From: an uncultured Bacteroidales bacterium
Lineage (GTDB): Bacteria; Bacteroidota; Bacteroidia; Bacteroidales; Muribaculaceae
Reading direction: 5' to 3'
Length of the DNA stretch: 64,000 bases
Assembly (NCBI GenBank): GCA_902782465.1
Contig: CACZNH010000005.1
Location: 146,036-210,035, forward strand
The position numbers were made by a program, and so were the translations under genes. The notes under the pieces are model-generated. The model saw only the letters and a list, made by a program, of their open reading frames with translations. It did not search any database and had not been told where the DNA came from. Shown here piece by piece: positions 8,988 through 63,424 of this stretch (the first letter of the stretch is position 1; every line of letters starts with the position of its first letter).

Positions 8988-9137
8988 ACTTTGCCTCATG
9001 GCGAAGATAGGCGGCGCCTCGGATATATCCAAATAAATTTGGTATATCTCTCGGCTTGCACTACTTTGCCTCGCGGCGAAGATAGGCGGCGCCTCGGATA
9101 TATCCAAATAAATTTGGTATATCTCTCGGCTTGCACT
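8988..9137 (+). repeat. Tandem pair of a 75-bp hairpin element
   Basis: Two directly adjacent copies (8988-9062 and 9063-9137) that differ at only two bases. Each has a constant left segment (ACTTTGCCT..GGCGAAGATAG..GCGCCTCGG), an inner hairpin with arms GATATA.CCAAAT and ATTTGG.TATATC, and a constant right segment CTCTCGGCTTGCAC. The second copy runs straight into TATCTTTG, the nadK -7 box, which is also near-complementary to GAAGATAG on the left. Related copies lie at 50649-50738 and inside comM at about 61370-61450. The rest of the 8790-9150 gap holds only AT-rich sequence and the minus-strand promoter. Confidence 0.85.
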
Positions 9138-9144
9138 ATCTTTG
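9137..9144 (+). promoter_or_regulatory. -7 box TATCTTTG of nadK, at the end of the hairpin element
   Basis: Exact TAnnTTTG match with only six bases between it and the ATG at 9151, so transcription should start at or very near the start codon. Confidence 0.6.
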
Positions 9145-9150
9145 TCCCCC

Positions 9151-10020
9151 ATGAAACAGATGGTTATCTTTGGAAACACTTATCAGGATGTCCCGTCTGC
9201 GCGGGTACTAGCGCTGCTGGACGCATTGCGCCAGCGTGGAGTGGGCATTGCCGTCGAGAAGGAGTACCTGCAGTACCTGTGCGGCGACAGTGGCCGTGAG
9301 CGGGGTTTGGAGGCCTTTGAGGCGAGCCAGGTCCCCGATGCCGACATGGCGTTGTCACTGGGCGGAGACGGCACGTTCCTGACAACCGCAATGTGGGTAT
9401 CAAGGCAGGGAATGCCCATCCTGGGCATCAACCTGGGGCACCTGGGTTACCTGACGGCCGGATGCCTTGACGAGGGCATGGAAATCATCGACGAGGTGAT
9501 GGCGGGAAAATACCGCATCGAGGAGCGCTCGATGCTGCAAGTCAGCTGCGATGCAGTGGAGATTCCCCACCCCTGGGCACTTAACGAAATCGCCATCCTG
9601 CGACACGATACGTCATCGATGCTGGACATGCTGACGAGCCTGTGCGGCAGCGAACTGACCACCTACCGCGGCGACGGCCTGATTGTGAGCACGCCGACGG
9701 GCAGCACGGCCTATAACATGAGTGTGGGCGGTCCCATCCTGGAGCCCACCACGGCCTGCCTGGTGCTATCGCCCATCTCGCCTCACTCGTTGACAATGCG
9801 CCCGCTTGTCGTGCGCGATGACAGCCAAATTGCTGTTCGCACCCACACGCGAGCGACGCACTACGAGGTGAGTATCGACGGTGAAGTCACCTTGTGCCCC
9901 ACGGGCTCGGTGCTGACGATAGAACGTGCACCCTACTGCGCACGCGTCGTGCAGCTGCAGGGTAAGGACTTTGCCAATACGTTACGTCAAAAACTGCTCT
10001 GGGGTACCGACCGGCGATAA
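9151..10020 (+). CDS. nadK: NAD kinase
   Basis: 289-residue cytoplasmic enzyme that phosphorylates NAD to NADP. The GGDG motif is at residues 71-74 (LGGDGTFL) and the second substrate motif is STPTGSTAYNMSVGGP; length fits the family. The ATG at 9151 (MKQMVIFGNTYQ) is chosen because homologues start with a short lead into a FGN-like strand; the ATG at 9160 is possible, and the frame-open TTG at 9142 lies inside the -7 box. The messenger appears to be leaderless or nearly so. A structured inverted-repeat element follows the stop. Confidence 0.95.
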   Translation: MKQMVIFGNTYQDVPSARVLALLDALRQRGVGIAVEKEYLQYLCGDSGRERGLEAFEASQVPDADMALSLGGDGTFLTTAMWVSRQGMPILGINLGHLGYLTAGCLDEGMEIIDEVMAGKYRIEERSMLQVSCDAVEIPHPWALNEIAILRHDTSSMLDMLTSLCGSELTTYRGDGLIVSTPTGSTAYNMSVGGPILEPTTACLVLSPISPHSLTMRPLVVRDDSQIAVRTHTRATHYEVSIDGEVTLCPTGSVLTIERAPYCARVVQLQGKDFANTLRQKLLWGTDRR

Positions 10021-10030
10021 TGGGTTTACA

Positions 10031-10210
10031 TAAAAACAGGACGCTGTGTCATAATTGCTACATGGTAATATAACCGTGCTTTCGCACGGGAAAGCTTGTG
10101 CAAACTGAAGGCAAACGAGTTTACTCGATTTGCTGTAATTTGCTTAATTTCCCGCCTGCAGGGCGGATATAATCTTTGCAATTGAATTATGACACGCCCT
10201 CCTGTTTTTA
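10031..10210. repeat. 180-bp inverted-repeat (MITE-like) element with internal hairpins
   Basis: Terminal inverted repeats of 26 bp (10031-10056 and 10185-10210) match at 23 positions and contain GTGTCATAATT. Inside are a hairpin CCGTGC/GCACGG near 10073-10088, another at about 10111-10133 (GCAAACGAGT with a near complement), and a CCGCCTGCAGGGCGG palindrome near 10152. The same terminal sequence bounds the element at 18224-18473. Sits between convergent nadK and the glycosyltransferase and may serve both as terminator. Confidence 0.8.
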
Positions 10211-11438: not shown

Positions 11439-11522
11439 CTACTTTTTTTTTGTACTACGGCTTTTCGCCCCGTTTTTTTGGGAAAAAGGGGGAAATCTTT
11501 TGCTACTTCCCTCGGCTTGCAC

Positions 11523-11530
11523 TATCTTTG
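11523..11530 (+). promoter_or_regulatory. -7 box TATCTTTG for DUF4923 gene
   Basis: Preceded by CCTCGGCTTGCAC, the same right-hand segment that precedes the -7 box in the nadK hairpin element, so this may be a degenerate half copy. It lies 19 bases before the ATG. Confidence 0.6.
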
Positions 11531-11549: not shown

Positions 11550-12155
11550 ATGAACCGAATAATGATATTTTTTAGCATCGTCATAATGCTGACGTTGACG
11601 ACCAGTTGCAAGTCGTCGCAGCAGGCTACCGGAAACCTTCATCCCGACCAGGTCTTCACCATGACCGAGGACGATATAGCCCGTGAGACCCTGCGAATCA
11701 ATCAGATGCTGAGTGGTGAATGGAAGTATAACGGCCCCAGCGTGGGCGTGAGCGGGAAAAATGTACTGGCCGGCATTGCTAAGCCCATTGCAAAGGGCAA
11801 AATCAAGAAGAAACTCAAGAAGGCCTACAAGAGCATCGGCCTCGACAAGATGCGCCCCAACTTCGTCTTCAACGAGGACGGCACCTGCTCCATCTCGGTG
11901 ATGGGAGCCAGTGTGAAAGGCAGCTACAACTACAATCCCAGCACCGAGAAGCTGGCCCTCAAGTGGCACGGTATCCCTCTGAGTGCCAACTTGAAGCGTG
12001 ACGGCAAGAAACTGCACATAACCTTTGAGGCCGACAAGCTGATATCGTTAATCACACTGATGGGACGTTTCAGCGACAGCTCGACCATCAAAGCGCTCAC
12101 GCAGCTGCTGGACAATTACGAGGACGTGATGGTGGGCTTTGAACTCAAGAAGTAG
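11550..12155 (+). CDS. DUF4923-family lipoprotein
   Basis: 201 residues with a lipoprotein signal peptide (MNRIMIFFSIVIMLTLTTSC). The mature part has LSGEWKYNGPSVGVSGKNVLAGIAKP, KGKIKKKLKKAYKSIG and a beta-rich stretch with FNEDGTCSISVMGASVKGSY, the pattern of DUF4923 proteins, which are confined to Bacteroidota and of unknown function. Likely anchored in the cell envelope facing the periplasm. The next gene starts 37 bases downstream on the same strand, so the two may be co-transcribed. Confidence 0.85.
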   Translation: MNRIMIFFSIVIMLTLTTSCKSSQQATGNLHPDQVFTMTEDDIARETLRINQMLSGEWKYNGPSVGVSGKNVLAGIAKPIAKGKIKKKLKKAYKSIGLDKMRPNFVFNEDGTCSISVMGASVKGSYNYNPSTEKLALKWHGIPLSANLKRDGKKLHITFEADKLISLITLMGRFSDSSTIKALTQLLDNYEDVMVGFELKK

Positions 12156-18223: not shown

Positions 18224-18473
18224 AAGACGCTGTGTCATAATTCCTCCATGGTAATATAAGAGGGTGTTGCAAAACTAATGCCTCAATATATAATCGCGCT
18301 ACGCGCGAGAAATTAAGCAAAATTATAAATAAAATTATAATAAAAATTTATTTTGTTTAATTTATATACAAATTTTGTTTAATTTCTCGGCCGATAGGCC
18401 GATTAAAACTGCATCAAATGAAGTTTTGCAACAGCGTCTTATAATTCTTGCAAGAATTATGACACAGCGTCTT
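18224..18473. repeat. 250-bp nested inverted-repeat (MITE-like) element
   Basis: Outer terminal repeats of 20 bp are perfect (AAGACGCTGTGTCATAATTC at 18224-18243, complement at 18454-18473). Inside lies a second inverted pair around GTTGCAAAACT (18256-18266 and 18422-18432), and inside that a third pair around GAGAAATTAAGCAAAATT (18307-18324 and 18371-18388, one mismatch). The outer ends match those at 10031-10210. The innermost arm resembles short sequences near 10137 and 49010. No ORF. It fills the gap between the M24 gene and the convergent lipoprotein gene. Confidence 0.8.
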
Positions 18474-23863: not shown

Positions 23864-23890
23864 TACAGGCCGCCCTCTTGTTCCCCAAAG

Positions 23891-23932
23891 CCTAATGCCT
23901 AGAGCCTAGAGCCTAGAGCCTATAACCTACCT
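23891..23932. repeat. 7-nt-period array (CCTAGAG type)
   Basis: Six heptads in a row of the form CCTANNN, three of them exactly CCTAGAG. The minus-strand stop codon of the next gene (CTA at 23927-23929) lies in its last unit. Confidence 0.8.
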
Positions 23933-32900: not shown

Positions 32901-32982
32901 CTTTAGGTATTTAGGTTTTAGGCATTAGCAGGCAACTGCCTCCAAATCCTAAAGCCTAAAAACCTATAACCTAAAAACCTAC
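32901..32982. repeat. Two-armed 7-nt-period array (TTAGG.. / CCTAA..)
   Basis: Left arm of TTTAGGT-type heptads (32902-32929), a short centre (GGCAACTGCC), and a right arm of CCTAAAR heptads (32947-32982). It follows the DUF2723 stop by six bases and ends ten bases before the deacetylase start. The centre differs from the TGGCATCCGCA of other arrays. Confidence 0.8.
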
Positions 32983-32991
32983 AGTTTAGAG

Positions 32992-35486: not shown

Positions 35487-35568
35487 GTTTAGGCGTTAGG
35501 CGTTAGGCATTAGGTGGCATCCGCATCCCTAAAGCCTAAAACCTAAAACCTTAAACCTAAAGCCTAAT
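35487..35568. repeat. Two-armed 7-nt-period array centred on TGGCATCCGCA
   Basis: Left arm of TTAGGCG-type heptads (35489-35514), centre TGGCATCCGCA (35515-35525), right arm of CCTAAAR heptads (35528-35568). It fills the gap between convergent genes; the minus-strand gene takes its last two codons and TAG stop from the right arm. Confidence 0.85.
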
Positions 35569-37029
35569 AACGAGGTGCAAGTCATCGGCGTGAGTCTCGC
35601 CTTGAGTTCCCACGGCATTGCGGTCCTCGAGGATGCTGCGCACCACAGGTTCCAGCTTGGGATAGACATCATTGAGAAAAAATGCCCACAAGAGGTCGGC
35701 CTGTTCGGGTACGACCTCTTCTATCATGGCACGAATGCCCTGTTTGCCCTCATCGATGATATCATCGACATCCATTTCCTGCTCATTGCCCTCGACCACG
35801 GCCAGCATGGTGCGCGAGAGCACGCCGTTCAGATGGCGCAATACCAGTTGGGATGCCTGCTGGGAAGTTTCGGGCAGGCTGGTCTTGCTGCCATCGGCTT
35901 CGAGAAATTTCTTAATCTGGCCCATACGTGAAGCCACCTTGTTCCACACTTTGCCCGACAACATTGTCGCCATACCAGGCGTGGCGTTGAGAATGCGCTG
36001 GCGTCCCATCTCGCGCAGGTCGGGGCAAGCCGGGGCTTCATTGAGCCAACGTGTGTCGATGTCCAAGCTGCGTTTCTTGTCGGTGAGAGTTGCCACCCTC
36101 ATCGCGAAGGGATAACAGATGGCAGAGCCCGTACCCACGTCAACAATGCTGTCAGAGTACTCGCCATTGTGATAAGTGGCGGCATCGGTCACATGCAGAT
36201 GTCCCGTGAACACGACGTGCACACCCGCCTGTATCAGCTGCTGGGTGATATTGTCATAATCCTTGATAATGTAATTGCCAAGCAGCTTATCCTCCTGGTC
36301 GAAGTGCGGCACCAGGTGGTGATGCATCATGGCAATGATGCTTTTGCCTTTCTTGTGCGCCTTGCTGGCCACATCGATGACCCACTGCAACGTCTCGGGC
36401 TTGATGCGCCCGCCATTGTTATAGTTGTCGACGCTGTCGCCACAGCTGGTGAGCTTGTTCAGCTCGTCCATATTGCTGTCGATACCGATAACGACCACGC
36501 CCTTAACGGGTTCATAGCAATAGCTGAGCGATGATGGGTCACGCTGGAAACCCTCGCCGTAGCCGTAGTTGCTGTAAAGCTGCGCGAACTCCTCGCGCGT
36601 GACGGTGGTTGTGGGCAGAGTATTGTCCCCGTCATAACGCTTGGCATAGGGGTTGTTGCAGTCGTGGTTGCCGGGGATGACCAGCGGTTGGATGCCATGC
36701 TGGGCCATGCGGGCCAAATGCTGCACCATGCGCTCGTGGCTCATGCGCTCGCCATTATTGGTCAAGTCACCCGTAATGAGCACAAAAGCCGGTTGAATTG
36801 CTATTACACTGTCGGTGATAGCGCGCATGATATCATCGCTGTGCGCCATCATCTTGGTCTCGGCAGCATCGGCGGCATCAATTGCAGCACCAGGTACCAC
36901 AAGTTCGGGACTCAGCAGGTGCGGGTCACTGATGATGACGAAACGGTCAGTCACTGTACGAGCAGTTGATGCTGATGCAAACAAAGAGGATATTACCATT
37001 AATGCAATAATAATCAATCTTGAATTCAT
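35557..37029 (-). CDS. Secreted calcineurin-like metallophosphatase
   Basis: 490 residues from the ATG at 37029 (MNSRLIIIALMVISSLFASA, signal peptide). Metal-binding motifs in order: ISDPHLLSPE, LITGDLTNNGER, VIPGNHDCNNPYA, MMHHHLVPH and VFTGHLHVTD. The family hydrolyses phosphodiesters or phosphomonoesters; the substrate is unknown. A C-terminal helical domain of about 150 residues follows the catalytic part. The C-terminal residues R-L and the stop are read from the heptad array, so the natural C-terminus may have been altered by the repeat. Upstream frame to 37062 is open but would precede the signal. Confidence 0.88.
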   Translation of the reverse strand: MNSRLIIIALMVISSLFASASTARTVTDRFVIISDPHLLSPELVVPGAAIDAADAAETKMMAHSDDIMRAITDSVIAIQPAFVLITGDLTNNGERMSHERMVQHLARMAQHGIQPLVIPGNHDCNNPYAKRYDGDNTLPTTTVTREEFAQLYSNYGYGEGFQRDPSSLSYCYEPVKGVVVIGIDSNMDELNKLTSCGDSVDNYNNGGRIKPETLQWVIDVASKAHKKGKSIIAMMHHHLVPHFDQEDKLLGNYIIKDYDNITQQLIQAGVHVVFTGHLHVTDAATYHNGEYSDSIVDVGTGSAICYPFAMRVATLTDKKRSLDIDTRWLNEAPACPDLREMGRQRILNATPGMATMLSGKVWNKVASRMGQIKKFLEADGSKTSLPETSQQASQLVLRHLNGVLSRTMLAVVEGNEQEMDVDDIIDEGKQGIRAMIEEVVPEQADLLWAFFLNDVYPKLEPVVRSILEDRNAVGTQGETHADDLHLVIRL

Positions 37030-37062: not shown

Positions 37063-37145
37063 GTTAGTTTTTAGTTGTCAGTCCTTAGTCCTTAGTCCTT
37101 AGTTGGCATCCGCACTTCTAACTTCTAACTTCTAACTCCTAACTA
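37063..37145. repeat. Two-armed 7-nt-period array centred on TGGCATCCGCA (aroA 3' side)
   Basis: Left arm of CTTAGTC heptads, centre TGGCATCCGCA (37104-37114), right arm of TTCTAAC heptads. The aroA stop (CTA at 37139-37141) is in the right arm. An inverted partner lies on the other side of aroA. Confidence 0.85.
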
Positions 37146-38430: not shown

Positions 38431-38530
38431 GAGTTAGAAGTTAGAAATTAGGAGTTAGAAGTTAGAAGTTAGAAGTGCGGATGCCAGCTAAGGACTAAAA
38501 ACTAAGGACTAAAACTAAGGACTAAAAACT
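38431..38530. repeat. Two-armed 7-nt-period array centred on TGCGGATGCCA (aroA 5' side)
   Basis: GTTAGAA-type heptads (38433-38475), centre at 38476-38486 (complement of TGGCATCCGCA), then CTAAGGA/CTAAAAA heptads. Read on the minus strand it has the same order as the array at 37063-37145, so the two form an inverted pair around aroA. It ends four bases before cvpA. Confidence 0.85.
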
Positions 38531-38534
38531 GAAC

Positions 38535-39110
38535 ATGACACTCATTGACGCCATACTGATACTGATAGTGCTCGGTGGCATCGTGCTGGGCTATCGCAAG
38601 GGCCTGGTGGGCCAGCTGTCGTCGCTCATCTCGTGGGCGGCAGCCATCCTGCTGTGCTACCATTGCAGCGACTTTGCCCATGACCTGTTTCTTGCGTTGG
38701 TTCCCAGCGCGGCGCAGTGGCCGCTGGCGAGCATCACTGTCAGGACGGTGTCGGCAGCGTTCATGTTCCTCATTGTGATGGTGGCAGTCCGATTGGTGCT
38801 GCGCGTTTTCAAGGGGACGCTGAAGGCAGCCAAACTGGGCTTTATCGACAAGTTGGGCGGCTCGCTGCTGTTCATGTTCAAGTATGCCTTTGTCGTGAGT
38901 GTCGCCCTCAATCTGCTGTATGCCATCAATCCCGACATGGAAACCTTCGGGACCATGCACATGATGAAGAATAAGCCCTATGAGCTCACACTTGATCTGA
39001 TGCCGACCGTCCTAGGCAGCGACAAGATGCCCAGCGACTCGCTCAAGCTCTACCGTGACCTCATCGAGCCCATCCCCACTGAAACTCCCACCCTAAAGCC
39101 TAACACCTAA
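38535..39110 (+). CDS. cvpA: CvpA family membrane protein
   Basis: 191 residues with four membrane segments, beginning MTLIDAILILIVLGGIVLGY followed by RKGLVGQLSSLISWAAAIL, the typical CvpA start; GFIDKLGGSLLFMFKYAFV is also characteristic. CvpA proteins are inner-membrane proteins linked to colicin V production and envelope stress in E. coli; the biochemical role is unclear. The last residues (TLKPNT) and TAA stop come from a 7-nt array. 18 bases separate it from the MATE gene, so the two are probably one operon. Confidence 0.88.
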   Translation: MTLIDAILILIVLGGIVLGYRKGLVGQLSSLISWAAAILLCYHCSDFAHDLFLALVPSAAQWPLASITVRTVSAAFMFLIVMVAVRLVLRVFKGTLKAAKLGFIDKLGGSLLFMFKYAFVVSVALNLLYAINPDMETFGTMHMMKNKPYELTLDLMPTVLGSDKMPSDSLKLYRDLIEPIPTETPTLKPNT

Positions 39111-39127
39111 AGCCTAAAGCCTTAATA
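39091..39127. repeat. Single-armed 7-nt-period array (CCTAAAG)
   Basis: Heptads CCTAAAG/CCTAACA repeated five times, overlapping the 3' end of cvpA and reaching the MATE start. It supplies the cvpA stop codon. Confidence 0.8.
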
Positions 39128-50648: not shown

Positions 50649-50738
50649 ACTTTGCCTGACGGCGAAGATAGGTAGCGCTTCAGGATTGCCAGGAAAAATG
50701 GGATTTTTTCCTACTCCGTTTGGCTTGTGCTATCTTTG
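50649..50738 (+). repeat. Hairpin element, third copy, ending in a -7 box
   Basis: Same frame as at 8988: ACTTTGCCT..CGGCGAAGATAGG..GCGCTTC, inner hairpin AGGAAAAA/TTTTTCCT, then TTTGGCTTGTGCTATCTTTG. The inner stem sequence is unlike the nadK copies but still self-complementary. TATCTTTG at 50731-50738 is the likely -7 box of the next gene (leader about 35 bases). Confidence 0.75.
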
Positions 50739-50779: not shown

Positions 50780-53700
50780 ATGACGAAAATCTCAACTTTT
50801 CTATTCAGTTGTGCCGCGCTGTTGGCTTTAGCCATCGGTAGCGGCAACGCTTGGGCACAGAATGCGCTGCAACTCACGCCTGATGCGGTGCAGGTGACCC
50901 AGGATTTTGACAGCATGTGGGACAGCGAAGCCCAGGCGGCGACGCTGACCATGCCACAGGGATGGCGCGTCGAGCGCCAGATGTCTGCCCCGCGCACCGT
51001 GGGCAGTTTCGCCAGTGCTGCGACCCAGGTGATGTACACGGGCGGCACGAGCCTTGCCAGCAATGCCAAGAATGGTACCTGGAACTTCGCTTCGAGCTCG
51101 GTGCCCAGCGACTGCTCGGTGGGCGGCCTGTCGACTACCGTTGACGGCGGCACACGCTGCATCAACGTGATGACCTGCCTGCACAATGCCGGCGACGAGG
51201 CCATCACCAAACTGTCATTGGACTATGACATCGAGAAGTACCGCGACGGTGACAATCCTGCCGGCTTTGCCGTGCAGCTGTATGTCTCGACCGACGGTAT
51301 CAGCTGGACCGGCGCGGGCGAGGACTTCTACAATTATTTTGCCCCCGATGCCGCCACTGCCGGTGCCGCAGTCGTGCCCATCAGCACCACCGCCATCACG
51401 GGCAAGCAGCTCAAGGTGGACGTGGCTGCAGGCAGTGACCTGTATTTGGCCTGGAACATCAGCGTTGCCAGCGGCACCAGCCCCAACAAGGCGATGGGCC
51501 TTGCCATCGACAATGTGGTCATCGACGCCACCTTTGCCTCTCAGGACCAGTCCTGCTACATCTACGTCGAGGACGTGACCAAGTGGGCAGCCCTGTATCT
51601 GGCAATGGACGGCTCCACGCCTGAATTGCCCGCCAGCAGCGCCGTGGTCAATGGCGTGACCTATAAGGTGTGGGCACTCGACATGGACGGCAACGGCCAT
51701 GAGCTGACCTTTACCGACAACACCGGCAACAGCCTGATCACCAGCATTACTGCCGACCGTGACCATTACCTGTGCCTAACCAAGGAGGAGGTGACCGAAA
51801 TCACCGACCCCGAGAGCTACACGGGCTATGTGGACCCGACACGCCCCCCGTTTGTCGCTTCGGGCATCTACCTGCGCGGCGAGGTGAACAGCTGGGGCGC
51901 AGTGAACGAATGGGAGTTCAGTGACGAGGGCAGCGGCACCTATGTGCTCTATGACAAGACGCTGAGCGGTGCCTTCAAGGTGGCCGACGCTAGCTGGAGC
52001 AGTGCCTGCAACTACGGCAGCAACGGCACCAGCGCCCAGATGGGAGAGCCTTACAGCCTTGTGCTGGGCACCAACGACAACATCTCGTGCGGCGGCAACA
52101 CCTACGTGTGCAAGCGCATCGTCCTCACCATCGTTGATGGCCAGGCAACCCTGCTGCTCGAGAGCGACGATGACGACACGGGTCTGACCTCGGTATACGT
52201 CATCGGCGACAACAACGGCTGGAACTACATGGACAAGTCGGGCGAACTGACGCTGGACCACGACAAGGTATTCAAGGGACAGGTGACCATGCCCGCCGTG
52301 GGCGACGGCTATAGCCACTGGCGCATCTACCAGCGCCTGGGCATGGGCGGCGTGTGGGGTGCCGAAGAGGACCTCACGGGCAACAACACTGCCGGCACGC
52401 TCGTCAAGGGCGCCACGGGCAAGGTTTCGACCGCTCCGGGTACCTATGACGTGACCTTTGACCTCGCCACGGGCGAATACAGCCTTGTTCTGGCTGCCTC
52501 CACGCCCACCACGATGACGCTGCAGCCTGCCGACGTCGTGCTCGTGCCCGAACTGCCCGAGCAGGTAAAAGTGCTGTCACTGAACAACAGCCTCATCTAT
52601 TACAATGACCAGGATGCCGTGTTCAACGGCATTGCCGAGGCGATGGGCAAGGATGCCAACTGGACCAAGCACACCCTGCTGGGCAAGTCGCTCAAGACCC
52701 ATTGGGACGAGGGCGACGGTGTGGCCGAGGACGGTAACCCCGGTGCCAAGATGCTCGTGCGCAGCGAGGCCTGGAGCCACATCATCCTGCAGGAGCAGAG
52801 TTCGCTGCCCCGCACCGACATCGAGACCTTCCGTGCCAACGTGAAGCGCTGGGTGGACTACATCCGCGAATACTGCCCCAACCCCAATGCTATCATCATC
52901 GTGCCTATCAACTGGGCCTACAGCGGCGACTGGGAGAACTACACGGCCTTCAACGCTACCTTCGTGAAGAACTGTCAGGACGTTGCGCTCGACCTGGGCG
53001 TGACGCTGTGTCCCGTGGGCGTGGCCTATCAGGATGTGTTTGAACGCGAGGGCAGCGAGGGAACCCTGACGTGGTTCCTCGACGACCGCCACCCGACCCT
53101 CAAGGCTACCTATATGGCTGCTGCCATGGAATATGGCCTGATTTACGGCGTTGACCCGATGGACATCACCTGGGCACCCAACGGCATGAGCAGCGATGAG
53201 GCAGCCGCCATGCGCGGTTATGCCAGCCGTGCCCTGGGCGGTTTCACCAACTATGTGGACCACACCGCCGGCCAAGTGCACTATAAGGTAACCGTGCGCG
53301 ACCAGTTCGGCATGGAAATCGAGGCTCCCGAACCCGTTGTGATGACCCTGAGCGACGGCGGCGAACTTGACGTCAACCAGGTATTCACCAGCAACGGCAC
53401 CAATGGCGAGTTTACCGTGACCGCCACGACGGGCGACTTCACTCAAAGCGCCAACATCAAGGTAGCAAGCGCCCTGACCGAGGTGGTGACCTATCCCGCC
53501 ATCGAACTGAACGAGACCACGTTGAGTGCCAGCGAGGCATTTGACGTGATGGGCGAAGACGCTGTTGCCACACTGCCCGAGGCATGGCGCATCGACCGCA
53601 TCCTGACCGCCCCGCGCACCGTGGGACGCTATGACCAGGCCGATGACCAGACAATGTACAGCGGCGGCGTGAGCCTGCCCAGCAATGCCAAGAACGGCAC

Positions 53701-58611: not shown

Positions 58612-58790
58612 CTACAAGAGGCTGGTGCCCAGGTAGGTGGGGCGGTCGAGGTTGCGGTAGCCGATGGCTTCCATGATGTGGTGGTCGAGGACGTAGGCGG
58701 TGCCCTGTGCGCGGATGCCATCAGAAATATCAGACTGATCAGTTGTTTGAAATCCTTTCGAGGTAGGCGATGGTGCGGGGGATTTTGATG
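58612..58790 (-). pseudogene. comM: comM (YifB) 3' fragment, copy 1
   Basis: Bases 58612-58707 encode, on the minus strand, [20 protein letters not shown] followed by PTYLGTSLL and stop, the C-terminus of the Mg-chelatase-like ATPase ComM/YifB. The fragment is split by a 49-base insert (58708-58756) and resumes at 58757-58790 with KIPRTIAYLE, matching [10 protein letters not shown] of copy 2. Everything upstream is missing. Substitutions relative to copies 2 and 3 show it is not a recent duplicate. The flanking 58334-59155 stretch otherwise holds only the SulP promoter, a tRNA-like remnant and AT-rich sequence. Confidence 0.8.
58708..58756 (-). repeat. Gene-end element inserted in comM copy 1
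   Basis: Minus strand reads TTTCAAACAACTGATCAGTC, then TGATATTTCTGATGGCATCC and GC. Same element as at 56563-56602 and 40481-40518; here it splits comM sequence. Confidence 0.7.
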
Positions 58791-60917: not shown

Positions 60918-61369
60918 ACAACCAATATGTATTTCAGTTGTCAAATAGTATTTGACAACTGAAAGCGTGTTAATTAATTGTCTCTCAATGCAAATATCGC
61001 ATCTGCTCTTGCAGGTGGTAAAAAACTACAGGCTGTTGCCCTGGTAGGTGGGGCGGTCGAGGTTGCGGTAGGCAATGGCTTCCATGATGTGGTGGTCGAG
61101 GACGGCGGCGGTGCCTTCGAGGTCGGCGATGGTGCGTGCGACTTTGAGGATGCGGTCGTAGGCGCGGGCAGACATGTTCATGCGTTCCATGGCGTCGCGT
61201 AACTTTTCTAATCCGGCGGCGTTGGGTTCGGCGTATTTGTGGAGCAGGGATGGGGTCATCTGGGCGTTGCAGTGGATGCCGGGTTCGTCCTTGAAACGGC
61301 GCTCCTGGAGCATCCTGGCGGCAATGACGCGCTGGCGGATGGCGGCACTGGGTTCGCCTGGGGCCTTAG

Positions 61370-61450
61370 ATGACATTTGCCTACGGCTTCTGTTGGCTAC
61401 GCCTCGGCAATCCTCAAACGAGTTTGGTATTGCTCTCGGCTTGCACAACA
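61370..61450 (+). repeat. Hairpin element inserted in frame in comM copy 2
   Basis: Plus strand has TTTGCCTACGGCTTCTGTTG, GCTACGCCTCGG, an inner hairpin GCAAT..CAAAC/GTTTG..ATTGC, then CTCTCGGCTTGCAC and CAACAG. Constant segments match the nadK copies. Both stems differ in sequence but stay paired (CTGTTG with CAACAG outside). Adds about 27 codons to the comM frame without a stop. Confidence 0.75.
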
Positions 61451-61531
61451 GTTGGTCAAAATCGACGGGTTGGACCTCAATCTGCAGGTCGATGCGGTCG
61501 AGCAGCGGGCCCGAAATCTTGCTCATATTAC

Positions 61532-63077: not shown

Positions 63078-63257
63078 TTATTTGCAATTTACAAGTTGTC
63101 ATTGTCGAAGTCAAAGAAGAATAAAGATGGCTTGATGTAATTATCTGTGGCAGTTATTAAGCAATTCTTAACAACTGAATAATTAATTAAAACTCTTTAT
63201 ATTAATAGATTATACTCCTTTTTGTGGCATCTTCCGCCAAGATAGTAGAACTTACAC

Positions 63258-63424
63258 GTTATTACCCATATAGCTTGGGCGGTCGAGGTTGCGGTAGGCG
63301 ATGGCTTCCATGATGTGGTGGTCGAGGACGTCGGCGCAGGCCTCGAGGTCGGCGATGGTGCGGGCAACCTTGAGGATGCGGTCGTAGGCGCGGGCGGACA
63401 TGTTCATGCGCTCCATGGCGTTAC
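63258..63424 (-). pseudogene. comM: comM (YifB) 3' fragment, copy 3
   Basis: Minus strand encodes [40 protein letters not shown] and [16 protein letters not shown] with stop at about 63258. It begins directly (four bases) after the RhuM stop codon, at the conserved [14 protein letters not shown] motif. Sequence differs from copies 1 and 2 by many substitutions. Confidence 0.82.

Follow-up and report, generated by a model that had tools for sequence, protein, structure and literature searches.

The DNA upstream of nadK in this 64,000-nt stretch of an uncultured Bacteroidales genome (the window) raises the question of what kind of element its repeated hairpins represent. The preliminary description had named four copies of a hairpin family and taken them for a selected RNA or single-stranded DNA structure; all four were present at the places given. 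Two copies stand in tandem on the + strand in front of nadK (289 aa; 9151..10020, +): copy 1 occupies 8993..9067 (75 bp; covariance-model match G000:C5:155036-155104, 75.7 bits) and copy 2 occupies 9068..9143 (76 bp; 84.2 bits). The third copy (50654..50737, +; 84 bp; 63.5 bits) lies upstream of a 1297-aa open reading frame (ORF) at 50780, and its left flank is a −7-like box, TAACTTT. The fourth (61379..61453, +) is a 75-bp in-frame insertion in a comM fragment whose gene runs on the − strand. Moreover, a decayed fifth copy, comprising the right end with its −33/−7 promoter only, was found upstream of the ORF at 11550 (11499..11530, +; 19.1 bits, E 0.35). The boundaries of the copies in the window were set from the empty sites of relatives.

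The unit has a fixed order of parts. From 5' to 3', H1 (a small hairpin) is followed by the guide, which is a 5' arm of 8-9 nt; next comes the inner stem-loop, specific to the subfamily, between two conserved feet, the second of them running ...GGCTTGCA; and the unit closes with the right end (CR), which pairs with the guide. In copy 2, all on the + strand, H1 (GCC-TCGC-GGC) was read from the sequence at 9068..9077, the guide GAAGATAG was placed by covariation at 9078..9085, and the variable inner stem-loop was delimited by covariation, pairing, and single-stranded DNA folding at 9097..9123. The inner stem contains a −33 box TTTG at 9113..9116, separated by a 20-nt spacer from the −7 box; both boxes were recognized by sequence. 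The CR of copy 2, CTATCTTT, lies at 9136..9143 according to the boundary rule obtained from the argS, comM, and htpG empty sites, and the −7 box TATCTTTG (9137-9144) is formed by the CR together with the next G. In copy 1, the right arm CTACTTT (CTACTTTG) is one base short, which makes its own outer stem imperfect. The comM copy has the guide arm CTGTTG at 61390..61395 (+; sequence and arm-pair test) and the right arm CAACAG at 61446..61451 (+). Of the segments previously described as constant, GCGCCTCGG and CTCTCGGCTTGCAC vary to some extent, being GCGCTTCAG and TTTGGCTTGTGC in the copy at 50654. The 5' segment GCCTnnnGGC is a second small hairpin of the unit, and the comM and htpG inserts likewise start with GCCTnnGGC.

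The covariation of the stems was assessed in two ways. In a MAFFT alignment of 22 copies that was not fitted to the structure, 89.1% of the cells paired compared to 78.0 after shuffling, and both sides had changed in 40 cells compared to 13.1. The covariation score was 0.326 versus 0.146 for the shuffled alignments, with 0/500 shuffles reaching the observed value; two weaker measures, pairs with change on both sides and further pair types, were reached in 3/500 and 48/500 shuffles, respectively. Controls with the structure slid along the alignment gave at most 56.5% pairing and a score of at most 0.146. Since the structure had come from the same sequences as the alignment, a second test was added in which the arms were anchored by the constant feet only. 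The 321 nhmmer hits in all fetched loci yielded 191 unique copies that passed the anchors, some misanchored rows being kept among them. The 115 distinct arm combinations had a mean of 5.93 of 9 Watson-Crick pairs, compared to 4.89±0.09 after shuffling (maximum of 2000 shuffles, 5.17), and the 53 combinations with unusual right ends had 5.43 compared to 4.18±0.15. By mutual information, four of the nine arm positions had the expected partner in first place and two had it in second place (after correction, six in first place); for three positions, it fell outside the first two by either measure. The pairing continues through the feet (GC/GC, GCC/GGC) into the inner stem. The outer-arm covariation is real, and the claim of constant loops with covarying stems is supported by both tests. 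The arms fail to match in a few copies, e.g., C15:103157, C21:32478, and C36:6490, which may be decayed. Folding as single-stranded DNA was better than that of most shuffles for three copies, namely, the two before nadK and the one in comM (z −1.8 to −3.2; two of them tested on both strands), but not for the copy at 50654 (z −0.65).

The size of the family was determined with R1, a covariance model built from 22 copies and used for the genome searches. In the window's genome, R1 listed 100 rows at E≤10, of which 92 remained after second-strand duplicates and short partial matches had been left out; the matches were mostly about 65-90 bp long. Tests on these rows used copies above 30 bits (above 18 bits for the test of array boxes). 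Above 30 bits, there are 78 copies in the window's genome, distributed over 61 sites, and 14 of these sites are head-to-tail arrays with 31 copies together. Matches to the cores were counted as well: no matches (0.00) were expected in shuffles for the 20-mer and 24-mer cores; the 12-mer CTCGGCTTGCAC with at most 2 mismatches was found 10 times in the window versus 7.83 expected, which is not above chance; and with at most 1 mismatch it had 71 matches in the whole genome versus 16 for the reversed control. R1 matched at E≤0.01 in 36/61 genomes, i.e., 33/37 of the genus (the window's own included) and 3/24 of other families. In a wider draw of the order, 19/198 genomes had matches at E≤0.001, seven of them with at least 18; these counts are lower bounds, since no more than 24 candidates per genome were scored. 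Relatives of nadK are encoded at 37 loci, and the nadK promoter carried an R1 match in L232 only (36/37 without); the named relatives are Bacteroidales metagenome-assembled genomes, several of them from rumen or other forestomach samples, and the window's genome is apparently of this kind as well. No copies were found in viral contigs by exact 20-mer or in plasmids by blastn. An element lies near each of several hflX-like genes, named by inspection, in genomes of different families (L287, L297, L372, and G000:C3:218119), from either an old insertion or repeated targeting.

Two other kinds of repeats were observed alongside. A second repeat family with the ends GCTGTGTCATAATT..AATTATGACACAGC occurs at 10041-10198 and 18229-18468 of the window and at 1325-1500 of L005; in 3/3 cases read, its site is either the inner stem of an R1 copy or the loop of a terminator-like hairpin, which looks like targeting of hairpin loops. 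Short CCTAAAGCCTAA / AACTTCTAACTTCT units, in part as inverted pairs, form arrays at 23883-23931, 32940-32989, 35491-35575, 37080-37142, 38431-38510, and 39077-39125 of the window.

The ends of the unit and its mobility were read from empty and filled sites. The comM fragment in the window carries 75 bp inserted in frame, the same genome has an uninterrupted second comM, and the insert is missing in the 24 relatives displayed. On the + strand, with ^ marking the junctions, the empty site reads GATGACAT[C/T]T^GGTC and the filled site reads GATGACATTT^GCCTACGGC...CAACAGTT^GGTC. Similarly, htpG contains a 75-bp in-frame insert, CATGTT^GCCTACGGC...CCACTGTT^CTCC, that is missing in the 22 relatives displayed. 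The closest relatives of htpG read CATCTTGTCC at the junction; because the two bases beside it differ, the boundary at this site rests on the length and on the element start in common with comM. Among the genomes searched, both insertions occur in the window's genome only. The right arms CAACAG (comM) and CCACTG (htpG) are missing from the displayed empty sites; therefore, both arms travel with the unit, and the idea that the right arm derives from the target was rejected. The left flank (CL) is native, the unit standing directly after a native ...TT(T). The two flanks differ at comM (GACATTT versus AACAGTT) and at htpG (GCATGTT versus CACTGTT), having only short ends such as TT or TGTT in common; there is no target duplication at either site, and plain target duplication was rejected as well. 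Three partial comM 3' ends lie in a row on the − strand of the window with other genes between them (58614-58704, 61025-61195, and 63251-63421).

Upstream divergence among the nadK promoters prevented an exact comparison with empty sites, and the argS promoter was therefore used. Among its 30 loci, ten displayed as empty read TAnnTTT^GC..., and four are filled, namely, those of the window's genome, G035, G036, and G032, with 80, 80, 80, and 84 bp, respectively, all inserted at TAnnTTT^G. Decayed copies seem to be present at two loci (L327 and L316), and the remaining ones are too divergent to judge. The argS copy of G032 has the first hairpin in common with the others but a different inner stem and one changed outer pair (GATAG/CTATC in place of GGTAG/CTACC); thus, both stems vary at one orthologous site with the pairing kept. 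One further copy is nested within another at C35. The copies at C22:14194 and C32:17572 are flanked by direct repeats of about 15 bp that span target, loop, and guide, a pattern unexplained by our model. Taken together, the unit of 75-84 bp is mobile, with no consistent target duplication at comM, htpG, and argS.

An ordinary miniature inverted-repeat element (MITE) of a DDE transposon would be bounded by terminal inverted repeats and would duplicate 7-9 bp of its target, and its arms would be complementary from insertion beside palindromic targets. The argS site fits such an element, since TACCTTT is single in the empty site and present at both ends in the filled sites, and the left and right boxes resemble each other in many promoter copies; argS alone is thus ambiguous, as it also fits a 7-bp target duplication. 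However, neither terminal inverted repeats nor a duplication of constant length is seen at comM and htpG, where the flanks are non-identical and the right arms are missing from the empty sites. Furthermore, the outer arms vary among copies and yet stay complementary, unlike fixed terminal inverted repeats. We consider a DDE-type MITE unlikely.

The right end of the element resembles a promoter of the host. According to the accessible part of one study, promoters of Bacteroides have TAnnTTTG at −7 and TTTG near −33, and the −33 motif was not found in Flavobacterium (PMC7366714). A full TAnnTTTG is present at the right end in 126/191 copies, and an exact TTTG stands at a spacer of 18-22 nt (mostly 19 or 20) in 145/191, compared to 2-21 of 191 for five other spacer windows. 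An ORF reading away from the element starts within 200 nt of the right end at 51/59 testable sites and of the left end at 26/59. By inspection of their sequences, the downstream products include ArgS, Pgk, DnaN, RbfA, TypA, GlnA, TyrS, and HflX, among others. At argS, the native −7 box is split by the unit (TAnnTTT^G), which itself contributes a new −7 box together with a −33 TTTG. Because the box that is interrupted recurs at the end of the element, the same downstream sequence still has a −7 box directly beside it. The element thus appears, from these motifs, to bring a replacement promoter of the host type that faces the downstream gene. In the arrays, an intact TAnnTTTG was found by script in 12/17 last CRs compared to 3/20 internal ones (p=0.0009); the script had misread four rows, and the counts by eye were 14/17 and 4/20. 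The internal boxes are mostly a base or two off, with array C7 as a clear exception. This suggests that only the last promoter of an array is kept by selection.

These observations bear on whether the hairpins act as RNA. A cis-acting RNA element or a small RNA kept for its structure, and spread by recombination or duplication, would account for the strong covariation, and tandem arrays could put upstream copies into a transcript. However, the promoter copies do not extend beyond the −7 box, which precedes the start site; two other copies interrupt coding sequence; and sites have either the whole unit or none of it. The DNA also folds equally well on either strand in the two copies tested both ways, and an Rfam search of the window at the gathering score matched two tRNAs only and nothing for the element. 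We regard this possibility as very improbable, and an RNA regulatory element was rejected as unsupported. Of the earlier alternative, RNA or single-stranded DNA, the DNA half is favored because the promoter copies end inside the −7 box, upstream of the start of the transcription that they would drive, and because the unit is mobile.

If the element is handled as single-stranded DNA, its position and its arms can be compared with those of known elements. Insertion sequences of the IS200/IS605 family are not known to make a target duplication. In IS608, as far as the accessible text describes it, insertion takes place precisely 3' of a target that the left flank retains, guides located 5' of the hairpin foot pair with both CL and CR, and the choice of target can be reprogrammed via the guide (PMC5934647); cleavage sites of REP sequences are thought, in the part of PMC8266576 available, to be chosen in a related way. 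The position directly 3' of the retained target holds at argS, comM, and htpG. Pairing between CL and guide was compared with that of permuted flanks (2000 permutations). In the window's genome it was 5.45 versus 5.13±0.09 (0/2000, n=61), and 5.36 versus 4.98±0.12 for copies with unusual guides (4/2000, n=38); a few copies with a weak upstream neighbor remain in this set of lone copies. Under the stricter filter of the pooled lone set, it was 5.31 versus 5.02 (0/2000, n=92). In the other genomes the pairing was weak (31/2000, n=51), and for non-canonical guides outside the window's genome it was not significant (336/2000, n=35). At htpG, CL pairs weakly with the guide, in 2 of 6 positions by eye. 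There is moderate support for the left flank being selected by pairing with the 5' arm.

The preliminary description had proposed looking for a linked transposase of the REP-associated (TnpA-REP) type, and none was found among the loci examined. Y1_Tnp is present in the window's genome and, at E≤0.001, in 38/41 genomes of the genus. G057, which is 99% complete and has 36 copies of the element, gave no PF01797 match at E≤0.01. At 55 Y1 loci of the window's genome, the genus, and G044, a part of the Y1 loci, R1 gave one 13-bit match and one truncated 23-bit match, the latter about 1.4 kb from the Y1 gene. Conversely, a home-made Y1 HMM detected no Y1 ORF in 96 loci around copies. A comparison of recurrent ORFs beside 127 loci, made without an HMM and with some loci overlapping and a few lacking the element, revealed no linked transposase; the large ORF clusters look like reading frames of the elements and of other repeats. 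The 333-aa RAYT of the window's genome, the 149-aa Y1 genes, and the 270-aa RAYTs of relatives had different repeats on their flanks where read. The 333-aa RAYT is flanked by direct repeats GGTCGAGGCAGAGCCTCGACACGGGGGACCTGTGGGA (L035 1080-1200 and 2230-2345). The RAYT-like genes of about 270 aa at L193-L201 and L203 (G032, G020, G034, G031, G033, G013, G035, G010, and G003) are flanked by elements whose GGGGACGGTTCTTTT-like core is constant, whereas the arms vary and are complementary to each other (GTGACA/TGTCAC, TGGGACA/TGTCCCA, TGATACAA/TTGTATCA, and GAAGAAAA/TTTTCTTC). Judged by these sequences, they are of the same design, in a family with a linked Y1 gene.

The element could also be moved by an enzyme other than a Y1/HUH transposase, e.g., a recombinase using base pairing between element and target, in which case it would have the logic, not the chemistry, in common with IS200/IS605. 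G057, with no Y1_Tnp, and the failure to find a REPtron in the loci examined speak for such an enzyme. However, the boundaries, the lack of a constant duplication, and the layout of guide, CL, and CR match those published for IS608 in the accessible part of PMC5934647, and most genomes of the genus do have Y1 genes. On balance, a non-Y1 enzyme seems improbable.

We consider it fairly probable that the family consists of non-autonomous, REP/MITE-like single-hairpin DNA elements that are moved as single-stranded DNA by guide logic, and not of RNA elements. The element strand would fold as single-stranded DNA, and an IS200/IS605-type enzyme (HUH, single tyrosine), or one working like it, would cut after CL and CR as placed by the guide. 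The excised unit would then rejoin after a new complementary target. A joint change of guide and CR would reset the target, and recombination between neighboring copies of an array is one possible source of such a change. Head-to-tail arrays may arise because the CR itself can serve as a target, and housekeeping-gene promoters may retain their copies because each insertion replaces the promoter that it interrupts.

By analogy, the element would work like an end of an IS200/IS605 element, with a presumed common chemistry. IS608 and ISDra2 likewise insert 3' of a target retained in the left flank, with the CR inside the element and a guide 5' of the foot that pairs with both, as described in the accessible text of PMC5934647. 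However, our element is one hairpin unit, whereas the insertion sequences have two ends around tnpA; its pairing covers 6-9 bp instead of a tetranucleotide; and its guide and CR differ among natural copies, with no linked transposase found in the loci examined. REP sequences and REPINs with TnpAREP (RAYT) have in common with it, according to the parts of PMC3733652, PMC6006769, and PMC8266576 available, short repeated hairpins in many copies, a guide-like motif at the 5' foot, and presumed single-strand processing. In contrast, the guide of our element is neither the fixed GTAG nor the CGTC tag given for some Bacteroidetes in the accessible part of PMC3733652; in place of a conserved GT[AG]G at the 5' foot, its arms end in GTAG, ATAG, TTAG, GTTG, AGTGG, TTTAGG, CTTG, and others. 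It also lies mainly at promoters, and the loci examined contained no RAYT gene with copies on its flanks. The element was not filed as a member of REP or IS605 because no copy-flanked transposase gene was seen in these loci and G057 lacks Y1_Tnp.

Mobile elements of such kind already have a name, putative mobile promoters. Promoter-carrying MITEs such as Correia elements are, as far as the accessible text of PMC10969869 goes, also small mobile elements upstream of genes that supply a promoter. The present element differs from them in that its insertion, as at argS, falls inside the −7 box and its right end completes a new box, so that the distance to the start codon is kept, and in that it does not have the architecture of terminal inverted repeats and target duplication. 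Rickettsia palindromic elements, in the same part of PMC10969869, insert in frame into coding genes, as the comM and htpG copies do; by that description our element is set apart in being about half as long, mainly at promoters, and in different organisms. BrickBuilt MITEs of Porphyromonas gingivalis are also repeats of a Bacteroidales species with promoter-like sequences reported, and from the description available they are set apart by size (IS/MITE repeats up to 1.1 kb). The preliminary description knew of no name for the family, and we found none either, in Rfam or in the literature searches; these searches, which included six 12-mers of the element and had most subscription papers outside their reach, returned no description of it. 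The kind of element is already known, as REP-like, promoter-bearing mini-elements; as far as the searches show, insertion that replaces a promoter, combined with diversified guide/end pairs, has no earlier description.

A further-reaching and more tentative reading, which we hold to be possible, is that these genomes harbor a natural population of retargetable single-stranded DNA elements. Each copy would have its own guide and matching right end, the two changing together as lineages shift target, and the preferred target would be the −7 box of the host sigma factor. Insertion there would be nearly harmless because the element rebuilds the promoter that it splits. The family would then be a natural, genome-wide counterpart of engineered IS608 retargeting, and the driving enzyme might not belong to the known Y1 group. 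If this is true, one could understand why a parasite located in housekeeping-gene promoters (argS, pgk, dnaN, rbfA, typA, and others) does not kill its host, and dozens of promoters in such genomes would be element-derived. The natural guide/target pairs would provide material for studying how base pairing controls single-strand transposition. For annotation, promoter hairpins of this family should be treated as mobile DNA, and not as riboswitches or small RNAs.
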